NCBI GenBank assembly: GCA_019637115.1
Contig: JAHBWH010000038.1
Span: 1-53,210 of the forward strand
Direction: 5' to 3'
DNA: 53,210 bases
DNA from: Myxococcales bacterium
GTDB taxonomy: Bacteria > Myxococcota_A > Polyangia > Polyangiales > Houyiibacteriaceae
The position numbers and the translations under genes were made by a program. Position 1 is the stretch's first letter; the number at the start of each line of letters is the position of its first letter. Below are positions 1-8,411 of this stretch, one piece after another. The notes below the pieces were generated by a model. The model ran no database searches. It saw nothing but the letters and a program-made list of their open reading frames with translations, and was not told the DNA's origin.

Positions 1-149
1 AGGTCTTCGAGCTGCTCTGCTGTCGCGAGCTCTCTCCGGACGAGGTCGCCGAGGAGCTCTCGCTCTCACGGCCCGCCGTGTACATGTGGCGGACGCGGAT
101 CCGTGAGGCGGCGCGCGAGATCGCCGCCGAGCTGGAGGGGACGCGATGA
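1..149 (+). CDS. RNA polymerase sigma factor, C-terminal end (partial)
   Basis: Only the last 48 or so residues are in the window; the frame runs from base 3 to the TGA at 147-149. The visible part is a helix-turn-helix of sigma-70 region 4 type: LSPDEVAEELSLSRPAVYM followed by a basic recognition helix (WRTRIREAARE). This would bind the -35 element. The stop overlaps the start of the next gene (ATGA at 146-149), so the two are translationally coupled, which is the usual arrangement of an ECF-type sigma factor and its anti-sigma factor. I cannot tell the sigma subfamily because regions 2 and 3 lie outside the window; a LuxR-type HTH is a less likely alternative. Confidence 0.7.
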   Translation, partial: VFELLCCRELSPDEVAEELSLSRPAVYMWRTRIREAAREIAAELEGTR

Positions 150-967
150 GCGCGGACGATCGCTGGTCGGATCCGATCTGGGACGAGCTGGCCGCGGGCG
201 AGCTCGACCCCGAGGAGCGCGCGGCGCTGGAGGCGCTCGCGAGCGAGGACGAGCTCGAGGCGTTCCGCCCGCTCGACGACGCCTTTCGAGACCGCCTCGC
301 CGGCGCGCTCACGACGCAGGTCCGGCACGCGCGCTCGCGTCGTCGCTTCGCGCTCGCGGCCACGACTAGCGTGCTCGCGGCGGCCGCGGCCGTCGTGCTC
401 GTGGTGCGCCCCTTCGCCGACCCGCGCTTCGACGAGCCGCCGTCCGCTGAGGTGGTCGACGAGAACGCGCGCGCGGCGTCCGCTCGGTTCGTGGGCGAGC
501 TGCGCGGTGGCGTCGCGACGGAGCGCAGCGCGTCGCCCGAGCCTGGCGCGTCGCCCGAGCCTGCCGCGTCGCCCGGGCTTGGCTCGTCGTCCGAAGGCGG
601 CGCGCCGCAGGTCCTCCCGACGTTCCACCCCGAGACCCGCCTCGAGCTCGTCGTGCGTCCGCTGCGCGAGGGGGGGGAGCGATCGATGGCGCACGCGACC
701 TTCGTGCGCGTGGACGGAACGCTCCGGCCTTGGGACGTCCCGGTCGAGCGTGCGCGAAGCGGCGCCGCCCGCGTGGTAGGGACCGCCGGCGCGTTGCTCG
801 ACGCGGTTCCCCCTGGCGTCGTCGAGCTCGTGATCGCCATCGACGACACGCCGGCCAGCGCAGAGCGCGTCGAGCGCTGGATCGCCGACGGTGATCCGCG
901 GGTCCTCCGCTTCCCCGCGCGCTTCGTGCTCGGGCCCGCGACCTCCGACGACGAGGGGTCGCGATGA
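146..967 (+). CDS. Anti-sigma-factor-like single-pass membrane protein
   Basis: This 273-residue protein is acidic at the N terminus (residues 1-55, rich in Glu/Asp/Ala helices), has a basic stop at about 62-66 (HARSRRR) and one membrane helix at about 67-87 (LAATTSVLAAAAAVVLVV). A long exported part follows, with a short Ser-Pro-Glu repeat around residues 129-152 (ASPEPGASPEPAASP). No zinc-binding HxxxCxxC motif is visible in the cytoplasmic part, so it is not a classical ZAS anti-sigma factor. It overlaps the sigma gene upstream by 4 bp and the CHAT gene downstream by 4 bp. Topology and position fit a membrane anti-sigma factor whose exported domain could sense an envelope signal; the function is inferred from context, not from a recognised domain. 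Confidence 0.65.
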   Translation: MSADDRWSDPIWDELAAGELDPEERAALEALASEDELEAFRPLDDAFRDRLAGALTTQVRHARSRRRFALAATTSVLAAAAAVVLVVRPFADPRFDEPPSAEVVDENARAASARFVGELRGGVATERSASPEPGASPEPAASPGLGSSSEGGAPQVLPTFHPETRLELVVRPLREGGERSMAHATFVRVDGTLRPWDVPVERARSGAARVVGTAGALLDAVPPGVVELVIAIDDTPASAERVERWIADGDPRVLRFPARFVLGPATSDDEGSR

Positions 968-3570
968 AGCGACGTCCGGCCTCGGCGGTGGGGCCGCGGC
1001 TGCCTGGCGGGCTGCTCCTGCTCGCCGCCGCATGTGGCGGTGGCTCGGGCTCCGCGGCGCCGCTCGCGGCGCAGCTCGGCTGTGAGCTCGAGCTCGATCG
1101 AAGCGAGCTCGCTTGTGTGGGCGAGGCGACGGTCTTCGTGGCCTCCGAGCGCGCGCCCACCGCGACGCTGAACGGCGAGCCGCTCACGCTGGCCTGGCGC
1201 GCGGTCGAAGGCGGTTGGCGCGCCGAGGTGGATGCAGAAGGCCGCCTCGAGCTCGAGGCGGGCGGCGCGCGCGGCGCGTGGTCGCTGCGCGCGCGTGATG
1301 ATCGCTTCGACGAGGTCGAGGCGCGCCGGAGCGCGGGCGACCTGGAGGGCGCGCTCGAGGCGCTCGAGACGCTCGAGCGGCAGGCACCCTCCGACGATAC
1401 GCTCGGCCGATTTCCCAAGCCGCCCCGCGCGAGGGTCGCGGGCCTGCGGGCGCGGATCGCGCTGCGCGCGGGCCGCGTCGACGAGGCGGTGGCTGGATTG
1501 CGGGTGGCGCGCGTCGCCGCGGAGCGCGCGGGCCTGCCGACGCGCGCGGCGCTCGACGCGATCGCGGAGGCGTTCACGGAGCGCGCGCGCTGGCGCTTCG
1601 CGGAGGCGCGCGCGGCGCTCGACGCCGCGTCGCGCCTCGGCGCGCCCGACGCACAGATGGACACGCGCGTGGCCTACCACCGAGGCCTCGTCGCGCGTGA
1701 CGTGGGCGACGTCCGCGAGGCCCTGCGGGCCTTCGAGCGCGCGCAGGCCTCCGCGGCGCGCGTGGGGCCAGACGACGTGGGGGCGTGGGCCGCGCAGGCG
1801 GCGGCGCGCCTGCGACACGAGCTCGGTCGGCGCGCCGAGGCCTACGCGGAGCTCGACGCCGTGCGCGCCGAGGGCGCGTGCGAGCGCGCGCACCTCGCGA
1901 CCAACCGGGGTTGGCTCTCGTTGCTCGACGCCGAGGAGCGCGTGGGCGTCGTCGACCGCGCGGCGCTGGAGCTGGCGGCGCGGCTCTACGCGAGCGAATG
2001 CCCACACCCCGCGGGGGCCAACGCGCGCGTGAACCTGGCCCTCGCGTCCTGGCTCGAGGGAGACCTCGTGGGGGCGCGAGGCGCTCTCGAAGGCGCGGCC
2101 GACGCCGCGAACCTGGAGGTCGCGCTCTGGCGAGACGTCATCGAGTCACGCCTCGCGGCGTCGAGCGGCGAGGCGCGTGCGGCGGCGGCTCGCCTCGAGG
2201 GGTGGCTGCCGAGGCTGGCCGCCGCCCCGCCGGGGGCGCGGTGGCGCGTGTGGGTCGAGCTCGCGAAGGTGCGTGTGGACGAGGGGGCGAGCGAGGCCGC
2301 GATCGGCGCGCTCCGCGCCGCAGAGGACGAGCTCGAGGCCGAGAGCCGCCGCCGACCGATCGAGGGCAACCTCGGGGGCTTCGCGGGATATCGCGACGAG
2401 AGCGCGCGGCGGCTCGTGCACCTGCTCGTGAGCGAGGGCGCGCTCGAGGAGGCCTTCGACGTCGCGAGGCGCGCGCGGACCCGTCGGCTCCGTCAGCTCC
2501 GCTGGCGTGAGCGGGTCGCGGCGCTCGACGCGAGCGTCCGCGCGCGTTGGGAGCAAGCGGTCGGCGCCTACCTCGCGGCGCGGGCCGACGCCAGCGCGGA
2601 CGCGGCGGAGGATTGGCGCCTGTCGGCGGAGGCGCTGGAGACACGGCGGCAGGCGCGCGCGGGCGTGGAGGCCCGACTCGGTCGGCTCCTCGACGACGCC
2701 TACGCCGTGCTCGCCAGCGGGCGTGGCATCGAAGCGGGGGTCCTCGGGCCGGGCCCCGCCGAGGGCGAGTTGACGCTCCTGCACTTCGACGAGCTCGCGT
2801 TCGCGGCGTGGACGCAAGACGGCGCGCGCAGGGTCGAGGTCCACCGCGTCGACCCGGAGGATCCCTTCGGCCCCTTCGCCGCGCGCCTCTCTGACGCCCG
2901 CTTCGTCCGGCTCCTTCCGCACGGCACGTGGCGCGCGGTGCCTCTCCACGCCGAGGTCCTCGGGCCGCCGGTGGTCTATGGCCTCGACCTCCCACGCGAG
3001 CGAGCGCCCCGCCAGCGTCGCGGTGCCGTCGTGGTGGCCGATCCCAGGGGCGATCTGCCCTTCGCGTTGGCCGAGGGGCGAGCGCTCGCGGCCCACCTCG
3101 GCGCGCCGCTGCTGGCGGGGGACGACGCGAGCTGGGACGCCGTCGGCGCGGTGCTCCGCACCGAAGCGGTCTTCTATTACGCAGGCCACGGCGAGGCCGC
3201 GGACGATCCGCTCCGGAGCGCGTTGCCGCTCGCCCATGGAGGGCGGCTCGAGGCGGGCGACGTGCTCGCGCTCGAGCGGGTGCCGTCGGTCGTGGTGCTC
3301 TCGGGCTGCGAGACCGCGAGCGCATCGCTCGAGGGTGCGCCTGCGACGCTCGGGCTGGCGCAGGCCTTCGTCGCGAGCGGCGCCGAGCGCGTGATCGCGA
3401 CGACCGCTCGGGTCCCCGACGCCGCCGCGCGACGTTTCGCGGACGCCCTCCGCCGACACGCCGCGACCTCCGACGAGCCCTTCTCGGTGGGGTCGGTCGC
3501 GGCGGCGATCGCCGAGCTCCGCGCCGCCGGGCTCTCCGACGTCACCAGCTACCGGATGCTGGTCCCTTGA
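964..3570 (+). CDS. CHAT-domain (caspase-like) lipoprotein with TPR-like helical repeats
   Basis: This 868-residue protein starts with a lipoprotein signal (basic start, leucine-rich core, lipobox LAAAC near residue 24). A long alanine/arginine-rich alpha-helical region of TPR type follows at about 115-530. The C-terminal 280 residues form a CHAT domain of the caspase/separase clan. The conserved pair is clear: YYAGHG with the catalytic His at 742 and LSGCETA with the nucleophilic Cys at 782. Both residues are intact, so an active cysteine peptidase is expected, anchored to the envelope by lipid. It sits between the anti-sigma-like gene (4-bp overlap) and a subtilisin-like lipoprotein 42 bp downstream. 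CHAT proteases in other systems cleave a specific partner after activation; the neighbouring subtilisin or the anti-sigma protein are natural candidates, by inference only. Confidence 0.88.
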   Translation: MKRRPASAVGPRLPGGLLLLAAACGGGSGSAAPLAAQLGCELELDRSELACVGEATVFVASERAPTATLNGEPLTLAWRAVEGGWRAEVDAEGRLELEAGGARGAWSLRARDDRFDEVEARRSAGDLEGALEALETLERQAPSDDTLGRFPKPPRARVAGLRARIALRAGRVDEAVAGLRVARVAAERAGLPTRAALDAIAEAFTERARWRFAEARAALDAASRLGAPDAQMDTRVAYHRGLVARDVGDVREALRAFERAQASAARVGPDDVGAWAAQAAARLRHELGRRAEAYAELDAVRAEGACERAHLATNRGWLSLLDAEERVGVVDRAALELAARLYASECPHPAGANARVNLALASWLEGDLVGARGALEGAADAANLEVALWRDVIESRLAASSGEARAAAARLEGWLPRLAAAPPGARWRVWVELAKVRVDEGASEAAIGALRAAEDELEAESRRRPIEGNLGGFAGYRDESARRLVHLLVSEGALEEAFDVARRARTRRLRQLRWRERVAALDASVRARWEQAVGAYLAARADASADAAEDWRLSAEALETRRQARAGVEARLGRLLDDAYAVLASGRGIEAGVLGPGPAEGELTLLHFDELAFAAWTQDGARRVEVHRVDPEDPFGPFAARLSDARFVRLLPHGTWRAVPLHAEVLGPPVVYGLDLPRERAPRQRRGAVVVADPRGDLPFALAEGRALAAHLGAPLLAGDDASWDAVGAVLRTEAVFYYAGHGEAADDPLRSALPLAHGGRLEAGDVLALERVPSVVVLSGCETASASLEGAPATLGLAQAFVASGAERVIATTARVPDAAARRFADALRRHAATSDEPFSVGSVAAAIAELRAAGLSDVTSYRMLVP

Positions 3571-3612
3571 ACGAGATGGGCAGCCGTCACCGCCCGAGAA
3601 CGAAGGACGAAC

Positions 3613-5727
3613 ATGAACCACAAGATCCTCTGGGTTGCGCCGCTGATGGCGCTCGTGGGCTGCACCGGCGACCAGGTCGGCGCGCGTGAGGACGGGCTCT
3701 TCGCGTCGATCGGCGTGGCGTCTCCGTCCGCGAGCGCCTCCTCGGCGAGTAGCCCGTCGACGCCGAGCTCCTCAGCGACGACCACCACGAGCACCGTGAC
3801 GACCGGGGTGCTGGCGCCCCGCGACCCACGCCCGAACACGACCGTCTGGCGTCAATGCGACGCGCATCGACTCGTCGGCAGCCTCCGCTACGGCACCCGG
3901 TGCCCGGCCCCCTCGGGCAACTGGCGAGCGGATGGCCGCTTCGCCGGGTTGGTCAACGAGTCGGGCGCGGGGTACTGCGGGTACACGCTGCCTGCCCACC
4001 TGCCGTTCACGTTCTCGGGTCTGCCGGTCCATCGGAGCCAGGATGACGTCAACGGGTGGGTCCTTCGTCCGGAGCAATGGCTCGAACCGGACTGCCCGAC
4101 GGTGGTGCCGCTCTCGGACGACGACGCCATCGCGTCGTGGGGTCCGGCGCACGTCGAGGCCCAGCGCCGCCAGCTCGATCACCTCGTGTCGTTGCCGACG
4201 GTCCGGCCCTTCTTCGGGCAGTCGCTCCCGCAGACGACCGACGTCTGGATCCTGGACGCCTCGCGCAACAGCAGCGCCGCCGACATCGAGCCGCTGCGCG
4301 GTGTCCACTCGGACCACGGCTTCGCGGTCGGGCTCCTCATGCGCGATCTCCTCTGCCCCGAAGGGCGCGAGGGCGTCTGTCCGGTGCGCTTCAAGTCGCG
4401 CAACGTGCTCGGCCGCGGCTACGACGGCGGCGGCGCGCACGGGTACATCGGCGACCTCGCCGTCGCGATCCGGCACGCCGTCGACCAGAACGCACAGGTC
4501 ATCGTCTTGGCCGTCGGCTTCCACGAGCAGTTCGCGCGACAGGGCGACCACAACTTCGACGTCAACCGGTTCCACGAGGCGGCCGACACCATCCGCGCGG
4601 CGCTGAACTACGCGCGCTGCCGCAACGTCGCCGTCGTCGCCGCCGCGGGGAACACCGAGGCGGGCCCGCTCGCGAGCGTGGTGGACGGCCGAAACCCCAT
4701 GTACCCGGCGGGCTTCTCCGATGAACGCGGCTGGAGCTGCGGGAGCACGTCGCCGCCGGCGAACGCCCGCCTCGTGCTCACCGCGAGCGCGCTCGATCCT
4801 TGGGACGCCCCTGCTCCCAATGCGCGCGCGAACGGGGAGGCCGAGCTCGCGGCGCCTGGCTTCGCCGTGGTGGCGCCGAACCCGCTCGGCGCCGGTCCGA
4901 GCTTCGTCTCGGGCGGCACGGGCAGCTCGTTCGCGGCGGCTCACCTCGCGGCGCTCGTGGCGTTGGTCAAGGCCTACCAGCCCGGTGCGACTCCGGAGGC
5001 CATCCACGCGCGGATCGCGCAGCACGGCGTGCGGCTCGGGCGTGACGCGAGCTTCTGTCACCAAACGGGTCGGTGGCCGAGCTGCGCCGAGGTCCGTCGC
5101 ATCGACGTCTGCCGCACCGTGCGCTCGATCGTCGAGCCGCTCTGCCGGCCGCGCAGCGGCGGCCTGCTCTTCATCCCGCCCGCCGAGTGCAGCGCCCTCC
5201 CGGTCTGCGACCCGCTCGCGGCTGGCGCTGGCGCCCCCGCGCAGGGCGTCGACTTCGCCCGCCTCGCGCAGGCGACGACCGAGAGCGCCGCGGATCCGAG
5301 TCAGATCGGCGTGCTCGGCCAGTGCGGCGCGTCCGGCGCCGCGGTGGCTGGCTGGCCGTCGTCCGAGCCGGGGAGCTCGCTCTGCCCCGCGCTCGAGCAC
5401 GAGAACGGCATCCGAACGCCCAACCGGGTCGGCTCGCTGCCCGGGGTGGATCCGTGCGGCGCCTGCGTGATCGACGCGCGCGACCCCGCGCGGCCGGAGC
5501 TCGTCGTCTCGCTCCAGCCGGGGCTGTCGATCGGTTCGCCGGTGCTCGACATCGGCACCTCCTCCGTCGCGCTCGGGTCCTTCGCGCTGCAGAGCCAGAG
5601 CAGCGTGACGCCGCTCCGCATCGCCCTCCCGCCGATGCAGGTGGTCCCCACGCACGCGAAGCTCTCCATGATGGTCGGAGAGAGCCAGTCGGCGACGGGC
5701 TACGTGCCCGTCTACGTGGGGCCCTGA
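3613..5727 (+). CDS. Subtilisin-like (S8) serine protease lipoprotein
   Basis: This 704-residue protein has a short lipoprotein signal with lipobox LVGC at about residue 17 and then a Ser/Thr-rich linker to about residue 65. The peptidase S8 triad is recognisable: Asp215 in VWILDASRN, His235 in DHGFAVG and Ser439 in GTGSSFAAAH, with the oxyanion Asn in VAAAGNTE. The domain spans about 205-460. About 240 further residues follow, containing paired cysteines that may form disulfides in the periplasm or at the surface. The Shine-Dalgarno sequence AAGGA lies 6 bases before the ATG. It is the last gene of the sigma/anti-sigma/CHAT operon, with a strong hairpin after its stop. Spacing within the triad is shorter than in classical subtilisins, so substrate range is unknown. 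Confidence 0.88.
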   Translation: MNHKILWVAPLMALVGCTGDQVGAREDGLFASIGVASPSASASSASSPSTPSSSATTTTSTVTTGVLAPRDPRPNTTVWRQCDAHRLVGSLRYGTRCPAPSGNWRADGRFAGLVNESGAGYCGYTLPAHLPFTFSGLPVHRSQDDVNGWVLRPEQWLEPDCPTVVPLSDDDAIASWGPAHVEAQRRQLDHLVSLPTVRPFFGQSLPQTTDVWILDASRNSSAADIEPLRGVHSDHGFAVGLLMRDLLCPEGREGVCPVRFKSRNVLGRGYDGGGAHGYIGDLAVAIRHAVDQNAQVIVLAVGFHEQFARQGDHNFDVNRFHEAADTIRAALNYARCRNVAVVAAAGNTEAGPLASVVDGRNPMYPAGFSDERGWSCGSTSPPANARLVLTASALDPWDAPAPNARANGEAELAAPGFAVVAPNPLGAGPSFVSGGTGSSFAAAHLAALVALVKAYQPGATPEAIHARIAQHGVRLGRDASFCHQTGRWPSCAEVRRIDVCRTVRSIVEPLCRPRSGGLLFIPPAECSALPVCDPLAAGAGAPAQGVDFARLAQATTESAADPSQIGVLGQCGASGAAVAGWPSSEPGSSLCPALEHENGIRTPNRVGSLPGVDPCGACVIDARDPARPELVVSLQPGLSIGSPVLDIGTSSVALGSFALQSQSSVTPLRIALPPMQVVPTHAKLSMMVGESQSATGYVPVYVGP

Positions 5728-5745
5728 AGCGGTCGGTGCTCACCG

Positions 5746-5781
5746 GGGGTCGTGACGAGCTCCGACGTCGTCACGAACCCC
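5746..5781 (+). terminator. Hairpin after the protease operon
   Basis: An inverted repeat of about 13 bp (GGGGTCGTGACGA against TCGTCACGAACCCC, one bulged base) begins 18 bases after the subtilisin stop codon. There is no clear U tract, so it may be a factor-independent terminator of the high-GC type or a 3' stabilising hairpin. Confidence 0.55.
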
Positions 5782-5801
5782 GAGGGGCGCTCGCGCTTGG
5801 C

Positions 5802-7043: not shown

Positions 7044-8411
7044 TCAGAGGCCGAGCTTGCGGCCGACGGCCTCGAGGGCGCGCTGCGTCTGCTCGTCCTC
7101 GGCCTCCACGAGGCCGTCGATCTTGCGCACAGCGCTCATGACGGTCGTGTGGTCCTTGCCGCCGAAGCGCTCGCCGAGCTCCGGGTAGCTCGTGCCGAGG
7201 CGCTGCCGACAGAGGTACATCGCGACCTGTCGCGGGTAGCTCACCGCGCGGTGGCGACGCTTCGACTTCAAATCGCCCAGCTTGATGTTGAAGTACGTGC
7301 AGACCGCGCGCTGAACGTCCTCGACGGTCAGCGCCTGTTCGTTGGTCGGCAGGGACGCCCGCAGCGACTCCTTCGCGAGGTCGAGGTCGATGCCCCGACC
7401 GAGGAGCTCGGCCTTCACCGCGATCCGGAGCAGCGTGCCCTCGAGCTCGCGGACGTTGCTCTTCACGTGCTGGGCGATGAAGAGCGCGACGTCGTCGGTG
7501 AGGTGGATCTTCTCCGCCTCGGCCTTCTTCTTGAGGATCGCGATCCGCGTGTCGAGCTCGGGCGGCTGGATGTCGGCCACCATGCCCGACTGGAAGCGGC
7601 TGATGAGGCGCTCCTCCATCTCCACGATCTGCTGGGGATAGACGTCGGAGGTGACCACGATCTGGCGGTCGGAGTGGTAGAGGGCGTTGAAGGTGTGGAA
7701 GAACTCTTCTTGCGTCTGATCGCGGCCGGCGAGGAACTGGATGTCGTCCATCAGGAGGACGTCGCATTGCTCGCGGTAGCGGCGGCGGAACTCGTCGATG
7801 CGGTGGTTCTGCAGCGACCAGATGAACTCGTTCGTGAAGCGCTCGGCGCTGAGGTAGAGGATGACGGCGTCGGGCTTGTCGCGCAGGATCGTGTGACCCA
7901 TCGCGTTCATGAGGTGCGTCTTGCCGAGACCCACCCCGCCGTAGATGAAGAGGGGGTTGTACCGCTTGCCCGGCGCGTCGCCGACCGCTACGCACGCCGC
8001 GTGCGCGAGCTGGTTGGAGGGCCCGACGACGAAGTTGTCGAAGCTGTACTTCGGGTTGAGGTCCGTGAAGCGCACCGGGGTCGGGTCGCGGCGCACGGCT
8101 GGGCGCGCCCGCGGCCGGGCCGGCGTCTCCAGCTCGACGCGCTTGGGCGGCGCCTGCAGGGCCTCGTCGATCTCGAAGCGCAGCCGCGAAGGGGAGTCGG
8201 TCGCGTCGAGCCAGACCTCCGCGAGCGCGTCGAGCAGGAGGTCGTTGTAGTGGTTGGTGATCCAGTCCGCGTAGAACCGGTTGGGGATGCGCAATACGAC
8301 CGCGTCGCCCTCGAGCCCTTCGCAGCGGACCGGAGCGAGCCACGTGTCGAAGTTCTCGGCGGAAAGGCGGCCGCGGAGACTCTCGAGCGCGCGTTCCCAC
8401 AGTTCGTTCAT
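7044..8411 (-). CDS. dnaA: Chromosomal replication initiator protein DnaA
   Basis: DnaA binds DnaA boxes at oriC as an ATP-dependent filament, melts the origin and loads the helicase. The 455-residue product has all parts. Domain I starts MNELWERALESLRGRLSAE with the family's DTWLAP motif; a short proline/arginine-rich domain II lies at about 85-115. The AAA+ domain has Walker A GVGLGKTHL near residue 160 and Walker B LLMDDIQF near 220. Domain IV has the DnaA signature GGKDHTTVMSAVRKI near 417. I chose the ATG at 8411 because GAGGA sits 8 bases upstream; an in-frame ATG at 8429 has no ribosome site and would add six residues. The intergenic region upstream carries DnaA-box-like sites, so autoregulation is likely. 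No dnaN or rpmH/rnpA is next to it. Confidence 0.98.
   Translation of the reverse strand: MNELWERALESLRGRLSAENFDTWLAPVRCEGLEGDAVVLRIPNRFYADWITNHYNDLLLDALAEVWLDATDSPSRLRFEIDEALQAPPKRVELETPARPRARPAVRRDPTPVRFTDLNPKYSFDNFVVGPSNQLAHAACVAVGDAPGKRYNPLFIYGGVGLGKTHLMNAMGHTILRDKPDAVILYLSAERFTNEFIWSLQNHRIDEFRRRYREQCDVLLMDDIQFLAGRDQTQEEFFHTFNALYHSDRQIVVTSDVYPQQIVEMEERLISRFQSGMVADIQPPELDTRIAILKKKAEAEKIHLTDDVALFIAQHVKSNVRELEGTLLRIAVKAELLGRGIDLDLAKESLRASLPTNEQALTVEDVQRAVCTYFNIKLGDLKSKRRHRAVSYPRQVAMYLCRQRLGTSYPELGERFGGKDHTTVMSAVRKIDGLVEAEDEQTQRALEAVGRKLGL

Follow-up and report, generated by a model that had tools for sequence, protein, structure and literature searches.

The first genes of a 53,210-nucleotide stretch of Myxococcales DNA (contig JAHBWH010000038.1, hereafter the window) encode an extracytoplasmic function (ECF) sigma factor, a membrane anti-sigma factor, an exported CHAT protease and an exported subtilisin of the S8 family, a four-gene set that, judged from its recurrence in related bacteria in shuffled orders, is probably a conserved signalling module (Table 1). 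The original prediction, made from the letters of the window, had described an operon of tightly spaced genes encoding two catalytically intact, lipid-anchored proteases. Re-reading the sequence confirmed the gene coordinates, both 4-bp ATGA overlaps, the 42-bp gap between the CHAT and S8 genes, and the intact catalytic residues of both enzymes. Of the two lipoprotein signals, that of the S8 protein (LVGC) is clear, whereas that of the CHAT protein (LAAAC) is merely permissive. The predicted hairpin following the S8 gene is a real fold, though when we looked for a terminator consensus there we found none, and because it lacks a T-run we rejected it as a canonical intrinsic terminator.

Table 1. 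Features of the sigma/anti-sigma/CHAT/S8 gene set, in window coordinates (aa, amino acids; HMM, hidden Markov model; MFE, minimum free energy)
Feature	Position	Strand	Basis or remark
ECF-type sigma factor, C-terminal 48 aa (region 4)	3..149	+	PF08281 and TIGR02937 matches on the fragment, sub-threshold
Anti-sigma factor, 273 aa	146..967	+	predicted helical cytoplasmic N-domain, one transmembrane helix, exported beta-sandwich; ATGA overlap with sigma gene
Anti-sigma transmembrane helix, aa 70-87	353..406	+	helix in the model; preceded by RSRRR
Anti-sigma Arg127 codon	524..526	+	invariant Arg, then a small residue; candidate site-1 cleavage site
TPR-CHAT protease, 868 aa	964..3570	+	PF12770, 1.1e-21; ATGA overlap with anti-sigma gene
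CHAT putative lipobox Cys24 (LAAAC, permissive)	1033..1035	+	sequence
CHAT catalytic His742 (YYAGHGE)	3187..3189	+	kept in 31/31 homologues
CHAT catalytic Cys782 (VLSGCET)	3307..3309	+	kept in 31/31 homologues
S8 subtilase lipoprotein, 704 aa, lipobox Cys17	3613..5727	+	PF00082, 5.2e-13; 42-bp gap after CHAT gene
S8 conserved N-domain, about aa 74-170	3832..4122	+	its HMM also matches the S8-less CHAT neighbour L052_6
S8 catalytic Asp215	4255..4257	+	kept in 16/16
S8 His235	4315..4317	+	kept in 16/16
S8 Asn347 (oxyanion)	4651..4653	+	kept in 16/16
S8 Ser439	4927..4929	+	kept in 16/16
S8 C-terminal beta domain with CxxC (C615, C618)	5434..5724	+	PQP..CxxC in 38/38 intact S8 homologues
Strong hairpin 3' of S8 gene	5728..5797	+	MFE -43.2 kcal/mol, z -3.5; no T-run
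dnaA-like gene	7044..8411	-	sequence recognition, not profile search

Neighbourhoods were fetched and their genes called with a codon-usage script. In a sequence search, 27 of the order's 145 genomes had CHAT homologues; those S8 homologues that were detected there (four outside the window genome) lay directly downstream of a CHAT homologue. We then pooled the CHAT loci of Myxococcota that had at least 1.5 kb of flanking sequence (n=52). An anti-sigma gene of the same membrane family stood next to CHAT in all 52, fused to it in five, a sigma gene in 46 and an S8 gene in 34; these genes occurred in about 25 arrangements with varying orientations, eleven loci showing the exact order of the window. 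A second set of loci was picked across the phylum by the anti-sigma profile alone, and is unbiased for S8 and gene order, but less so for CHAT because the profile had been built from CHAT neighbours. Among the 37 of these loci with a called anti-sigma gene, a sigma gene was adjacent in 32, CHAT lay within 8 kb in 26, S8 was present in 22, and CHAT and S8 occurred together in 20. Across 379 genomes, scored at E<=1e-50 for CHAT and <1e-10, as read from the listed E-values, for the anti-sigma factor, 37 held both proteins, five CHAT alone, three the anti-sigma factor alone and 334 neither (Fisher 2.7e-42, uncorrected for relatedness). Among the hosts with all four genes in window order are Polyangium fumosum DSM 14668, Pyxidicoccus caerfyrddinensis, a Myxococcaceae metagenome-assembled genome (MAG) and an Acidobacteriota MAG. 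In Sorangium cellulosum So0157-2, the sigma, anti-sigma and CHAT genes are accompanied by one for a small secreted protein that fits the CxxC profile described below. The original prediction had proposed a search for the neighbourhood in other genomes, and it is indeed conserved phylum-wide. Several genomes with a CHAT-less anti-sigma locus hold a full-length CHAT gene elsewhere, so the association survives the loss of linkage. At locus L159, CHAT and S8 are accompanied by a short anti-sigma-like frame.

The members of the set have also diverged together. Shuffling modules within genomes only (2000 shuffles), the correlation of CHAT distances with those of S8 (r 0.94) was reached by 0/2000 shuffles, with those of the anti-sigma factor (r 0.83) by 5/2000 and with those of the sigma factor (r 0.71) by 2/2000; anti-sigma and S8 distances were more weakly coupled (0.84, reached by 131/2000). 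Modules are inherited as cognate units, most tightly for CHAT and S8, a pattern partly accounted for by the joint inheritance of linked genes. CHAT genes are rare, with zero to three per genome, and both CHAT genes of the window genome sit in such modules. The second of these (L067 4230-9489, reverse strand, contig G000:C323) comprises CHAT, a small secreted CxxC protein, sigma and anti-sigma, with no S8. These data support the proposal that the genes form one functional module tied to an ECF sigma/anti-sigma pair.

The sigma gene was only partly accessible to the original prediction: because base 1 of the window is the start of its contig (G000:C312), merely the last 48 residues could be seen. 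Region 4 is present, but the gene is incomplete. Its first 110 codons, encoding region 2, occupy the right-hand end of contig C25 (L124 9403-9732), and about 45 residues are unsequenced between the two contigs. The window fragment is 67% identical to the full-length homologue at locus L038, which scores 46.6 against a cut-off of 42.9 for TIGR02937, above the cut-off for PF04542 and below that for PF08281. With regions 2 and 4 both recognizable, the protein is assigned by sequence to the ECF sigma factors.

The following gene encodes a protein with no Pfam or NCBIfam match. Its AlphaFold model shows a helical N-domain, the transmembrane helix and a beta-sandwich exported domain, and a positive-inside, N-in topology is predicted in 62 of 65 family members. 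With a predicted cytoplasmic domain, a transmembrane segment and an exported domain encoded beside a sigma gene, it is classed from the model as a class I membrane anti-sigma factor. The window protein lacks the zf-HC2 motif (HxxxCxxC), which is restricted to loci L111, L117 and L118: L117_6 scores above the zf-HC2 cut-off and L111_7 and L118_5 carry HxxxCxxC, all of them on the same exported domain and adjoining other sigma genes. Zinc-finger N-domains on this domain strengthen the assignment as an anti-sigma factor and single out the exported domain as the element that stays constant in the family. A search of the anti-sigma profile against the PDB gave no match, and Foldseek matched the exported domain in the PDB to generic Ig-like and NPC2-like folds alone. 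Homology to the N-terminal domain of the CHAT protein, considered because of similar motifs, was rejected at a profile-profile probability of about 1%. Within the exported domain, Arg127 is kept in 62 of 63 anti-sigma factors near CHAT and in 11 of 11 aligned members far from it; the residue stands at the start of a loop whose predicted local distance difference test (pLDDT) score is <50 at positions 125-128. The same sigma/anti-sigma family also occurs beside an HlyD-type (ABC) exporter operon at L082, and beside a kinase-like gene at a contig edge at L084, instead of CHAT, and the exported domain therefore appears to serve other pathways too. At L117 (G392:C160), the zf-HC2 anti-sigma gene is accompanied by S8-profile matches in three neighbouring frames, and no CHAT was detected in this genome, which is 94% complete.

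The third protein belongs to the CHAT family by its PF12770 score (78 bits against a gathering threshold of 24) and consists of an N-terminal Cys-pair domain, an array of tetratricopeptide repeats (TPR) and a C-terminal CHAT domain (residues 676-835). A lipobox-like Cys is found in 29/52 homologues. A clue to its location comes from one clade (L053-L056, L059) in which anti-sigma domain, transmembrane helix, exported domain, TPR and CHAT form a single chain of about 1,050-1,110 residues. This fusion places CHAT outside the cytoplasm and ties it to the anti-sigma factor, in line with the earlier view of both proteases as extracytoplasmic. In the same loci, a secreted protein of 955-993 residues is encoded between the fusion and S8, with a MYXO-CTERM-like end in L056. 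Profile searches with the CHAT family matched TPR and CHAT structures; the Craspase TPR-CHAT chains were weak matches (5e-4 to 1e-3) and 8rot_B a better one (2e-8). Further afield, a distant CHAT protein at L150 (G046:C106) has an ECF-like sigma factor and an HxxxCxxC anti-sigma-like transmembrane protein as neighbours, which suggests a wider CHAT/sigma association. In two Thermodesulfobacteriota proteins (L146, L147), CHAT follows a guanylate/adenylate-cyclase-like domain at the N-terminus, and an ECF-like sigma gene lies near one of them; given their different architecture, we rejected them as relatives of the module.

The S8 protein scores 49.4 bits against a cut-off of 21.8 for PF00082. 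Its lipobox Cys is followed by a Cys-rich N-domain, the S8 domain and the C-terminal CxxC beta domain, and its structure model (predicted template-modelling score 0.71) aligns over residues 84-504 with pro-subtilisin E at a Z of 26. Every intact homologue ends in the same beta domain. Beyond the S8 proteins, an HMM of the CxxC domain was significant solely in small secreted CHAT neighbours (L048_9, L043_8, L041_6, L048_10 and L044_3; E-values 1.4e-7 to 1.9e-5), and the next two, weak matches were also CHAT neighbours. Loci without S8 encode CxxC in 10/11 of the small secreted proteins immediately downstream, as compared to 5/48 elsewhere (P 5e-7), and L052_6 combines the S8 N-domain (HMM 3e-8) with a CxxC end and has no catalytic domain. 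The subtilisin domain is therefore optional, and by its sequence the S8 protein represents one variant of a conserved partner of CHAT with a CxxC beta domain. An unusual arrangement was found at L093 (8789-12529, reverse strand; G327:C243), where a single frame of 1,246 codons runs from Cys-rich repeats through S8, the CxxC domain, a D/T-rich linker and a MYXO-CTERM-like segment (GCSGC..TM..RK, TM being transmembrane) into an ECF sigma factor. This frame could encode a subtilisin-transmembrane-sigma fusion, or the sigma factor could start at an internal GTG; the assembly is a draft, and we treat the case as a lead.

The explanation that best covers the whole, held at somewhat less than even confidence, is an envelope-signalling module in which the CHAT protease relays an external event to the anti-sigma factor, probably by cutting it. 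The single-pass anti-sigma factor would hold the ECF sigma factor at the inner membrane and present its exported beta-sandwich as the receptor end. The TPR-CHAT protease, located outside the cytoplasmic membrane, would work with a dedicated secreted or lipid-anchored partner ending in the CxxC beta domain; in the window, this partner also contains a subtilisin domain, which lies between the CxxC domain and the conserved N-domain. An envelope or external event is most likely sensed by the TPR region together with the CxxC partner, upon which activated CHAT would cut the exported part of the anti-sigma factor, perhaps at the disordered loop after Arg127. Degradation of the remainder would free the sigma factor to transcribe the module, in an autoregulatory manner, together with other genes. 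The subtilisin, where present, may act as a co-regulated partner or executor rather than as an obligatory relay.

Several observations weigh against CHAT-driven release of the sigma factor. Arg127 is kept equally well in the absence of a nearby CHAT, including at L117, and may therefore be structural or serve another protease; we rejected its invariance as proof of CHAT cleavage, and it stays a candidate site. CHAT and S8 are found together, apart from sigma and anti-sigma, at L158, L160 and L161, and S8 tracks CHAT more tightly than the anti-sigma factor does, a combination that fits CHAT acting on the S8/CxxC partner also or instead. Promoter autoregulation is unsupported, as a crude, low-power search for dyad enrichment upstream of 57 sigma genes versus 375 other genes yielded no shared promoter motif, merely weak GC-rich words. 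The split loci would equally suit a scheme in which the sigma/anti-sigma pair senses through general site-1/site-2 proteolysis, with CHAT and the CxxC/S8 proteins being target genes that act on envelope or prey proteins. ECF operons commonly include their own targets, and the anti-sigma pairs placed beside an exporter or a kinase-like gene point in the same direction. For a mere target, however, the single anti-sigma-TPR-CHAT chain is hard to explain, as are the anti-sigma gene in every flanked CHAT locus and the co-divergence of CHAT with the anti-sigma factor within genomes, and we consider this scheme unlikely, albeit a serious contender.

The original prediction had thought a cascade conceivable, in which CHAT activates the subtilisin or cuts the exported domain of the anti-sigma factor, with positive feedback on the operon. 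As a protease cascade, CHAT would activate the S8 zymogen by cutting it (or its CxxC tail), and the subtilisin would serve as executor or itself cut the anti-sigma factor. This proposal draws on the co-divergence of CHAT and S8, the tightest that we measured, on their remaining paired when away from sigma and anti-sigma, and on the conserved N-domain upstream of the catalytic domain, the model aligning with pro-subtilisin from residue 84. Yet the S8 domain is missing in 18/52 loci, many of which keep sigma, anti-sigma, CHAT and a secreted CxxC protein. Because most S8-less loci carry such a small CxxC protein instead, and L052_6 likewise has no catalytic domain, a universal CHAT-to-subtilisin cascade is improbable and cannot be the general core of the module. 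We also weighed an envelope defence or cell-death effector pair, caspase-like protease plus subtilisin, switched by sigma and anti-sigma. CHAT and subtilase proteins do occur in defence systems, and weak PADLOC matches were obtained (BovA 5.5e-5, subtilase 2e-5), but these are confined to generic catalytic cores, for which reason we rejected membership in a PADLOC defence system. Moreover, the two proteins are exported, neither a pore-former nor a nucleic-acid sensor was seen, and in the window the module lies outside any defence island, with a dnaA-like gene just downstream among its neighbours. We hold this explanation to be very improbable. The contig carrying the 5' end of the sigma gene also holds a dnaN-like gene (L124 4442-5596, reverse strand), assigned by sequence recognition, which suggests that the module is located close to the replication origin. 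Chance adjacency of unrelated genes, finally, has a negligible probability, being refuted by conservation in shuffled gene orders, co-occurrence and co-divergence.

Most of what is known of CHAT proteases concerns cytoplasmic enzymes linked to defence, and to our knowledge the RNA-guided Craspase is the sole one with a demonstrated action on a sigma pathway. The phylum-wide occurrence of an extracytoplasmic TPR-CHAT protease beside an anti-sigma factor, or in one chain with it, suggests that caspase-like sigma control is broader and not bound to CRISPR. Two apparently unnamed domains are defined here, one being the exported domain of the anti-sigma factor and the other the CxxC beta domain, and several 'hypothetical' lipoproteins become candidate CHAT partners. 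As Polyangium fumosum, Pyxidicoccus caerfyrddinensis and Sorangium cellulosum are cultured hosts of the module, it is open to experiment. The original prediction knew of no described system with this order, which agrees with our limited full-text literature search: it returned no description of the module, and for CHAT with sigma factors the Craspase papers were the sole relevant ones. An ECF sigma/anti-sigma pair joined by a TPR-CHAT protease outside the cytoplasm and by a CxxC/S8 partner is thus apparently undescribed.

Among known systems, the RseA-sigmaE and RsiW-sigmaW pairs resemble the window pair in having a single-pass anti-sigma factor with an exported domain that controls an ECF sigma factor, the first cut being expected outside the membrane. 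In such regulated intramembrane proteolysis, DegS, PrsW and signal peptidase are among the known site-1 proteases, whereas CHAT is not, and the exported domain of the window protein belongs to a different, Pfam-less family. For the S8 protein, the best named subtilase model is mycosin, the membrane-anchored subtilase of type VII secretion systems (TIGR03921, 2.6e-24). We rejected this identity, since the score of 86 bits falls below the curated equivalog cut-off of 278.75; no type VII secretion genes were seen beside the S8 gene, and the protein has the CxxC C-terminal domain. Bacterial gasdermin systems offer a further parallel, as caspase-like/CHAT or subtilisin proteases are dedicated activators of a neighbouring protein there, whereas at this locus no gasdermin was seen, the proteases are exported, and a sigma/anti-sigma pair is present. 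The nearest precedent, by analogy only, is the type III-E Craspase, in which the TPR-CHAT protease Csx29 cuts the sigma inhibitor Csx30 and thereby frees CASP-sigma (PMC10028731). In both systems a TPR-CHAT protease accompanies an ECF-like sigma factor and the inhibitor of that factor, and Craspase thus sets a precedent for CHAT-controlled sigma release. No Cas7-11/gRAMP effector or Csx30 was seen in the neighbourhoods examined, the whole genome not having been searched for gRAMP. It is possible, though we put it at less than even, that the module is an envelope-side counterpart of Craspase, recurrent in Myxococcota and independent of CRISPR, in which an exported TPR-CHAT protease, gated by a CxxC partner that in many loci has a subtilisin domain as well, would have direct control of an ECF sigma factor through cleavage of the exported portion of the anti-sigma factor. 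Whereas Craspase is cytoplasmic, guided by RNA through Cas7-11 and directed at soluble Csx30 (PMC10028731), the CHAT protease of the window is exported and accompanied by an S8/CxxC partner, and its anti-sigma factor, for which the profile has no PDB match, is membrane-bound with an exported domain.

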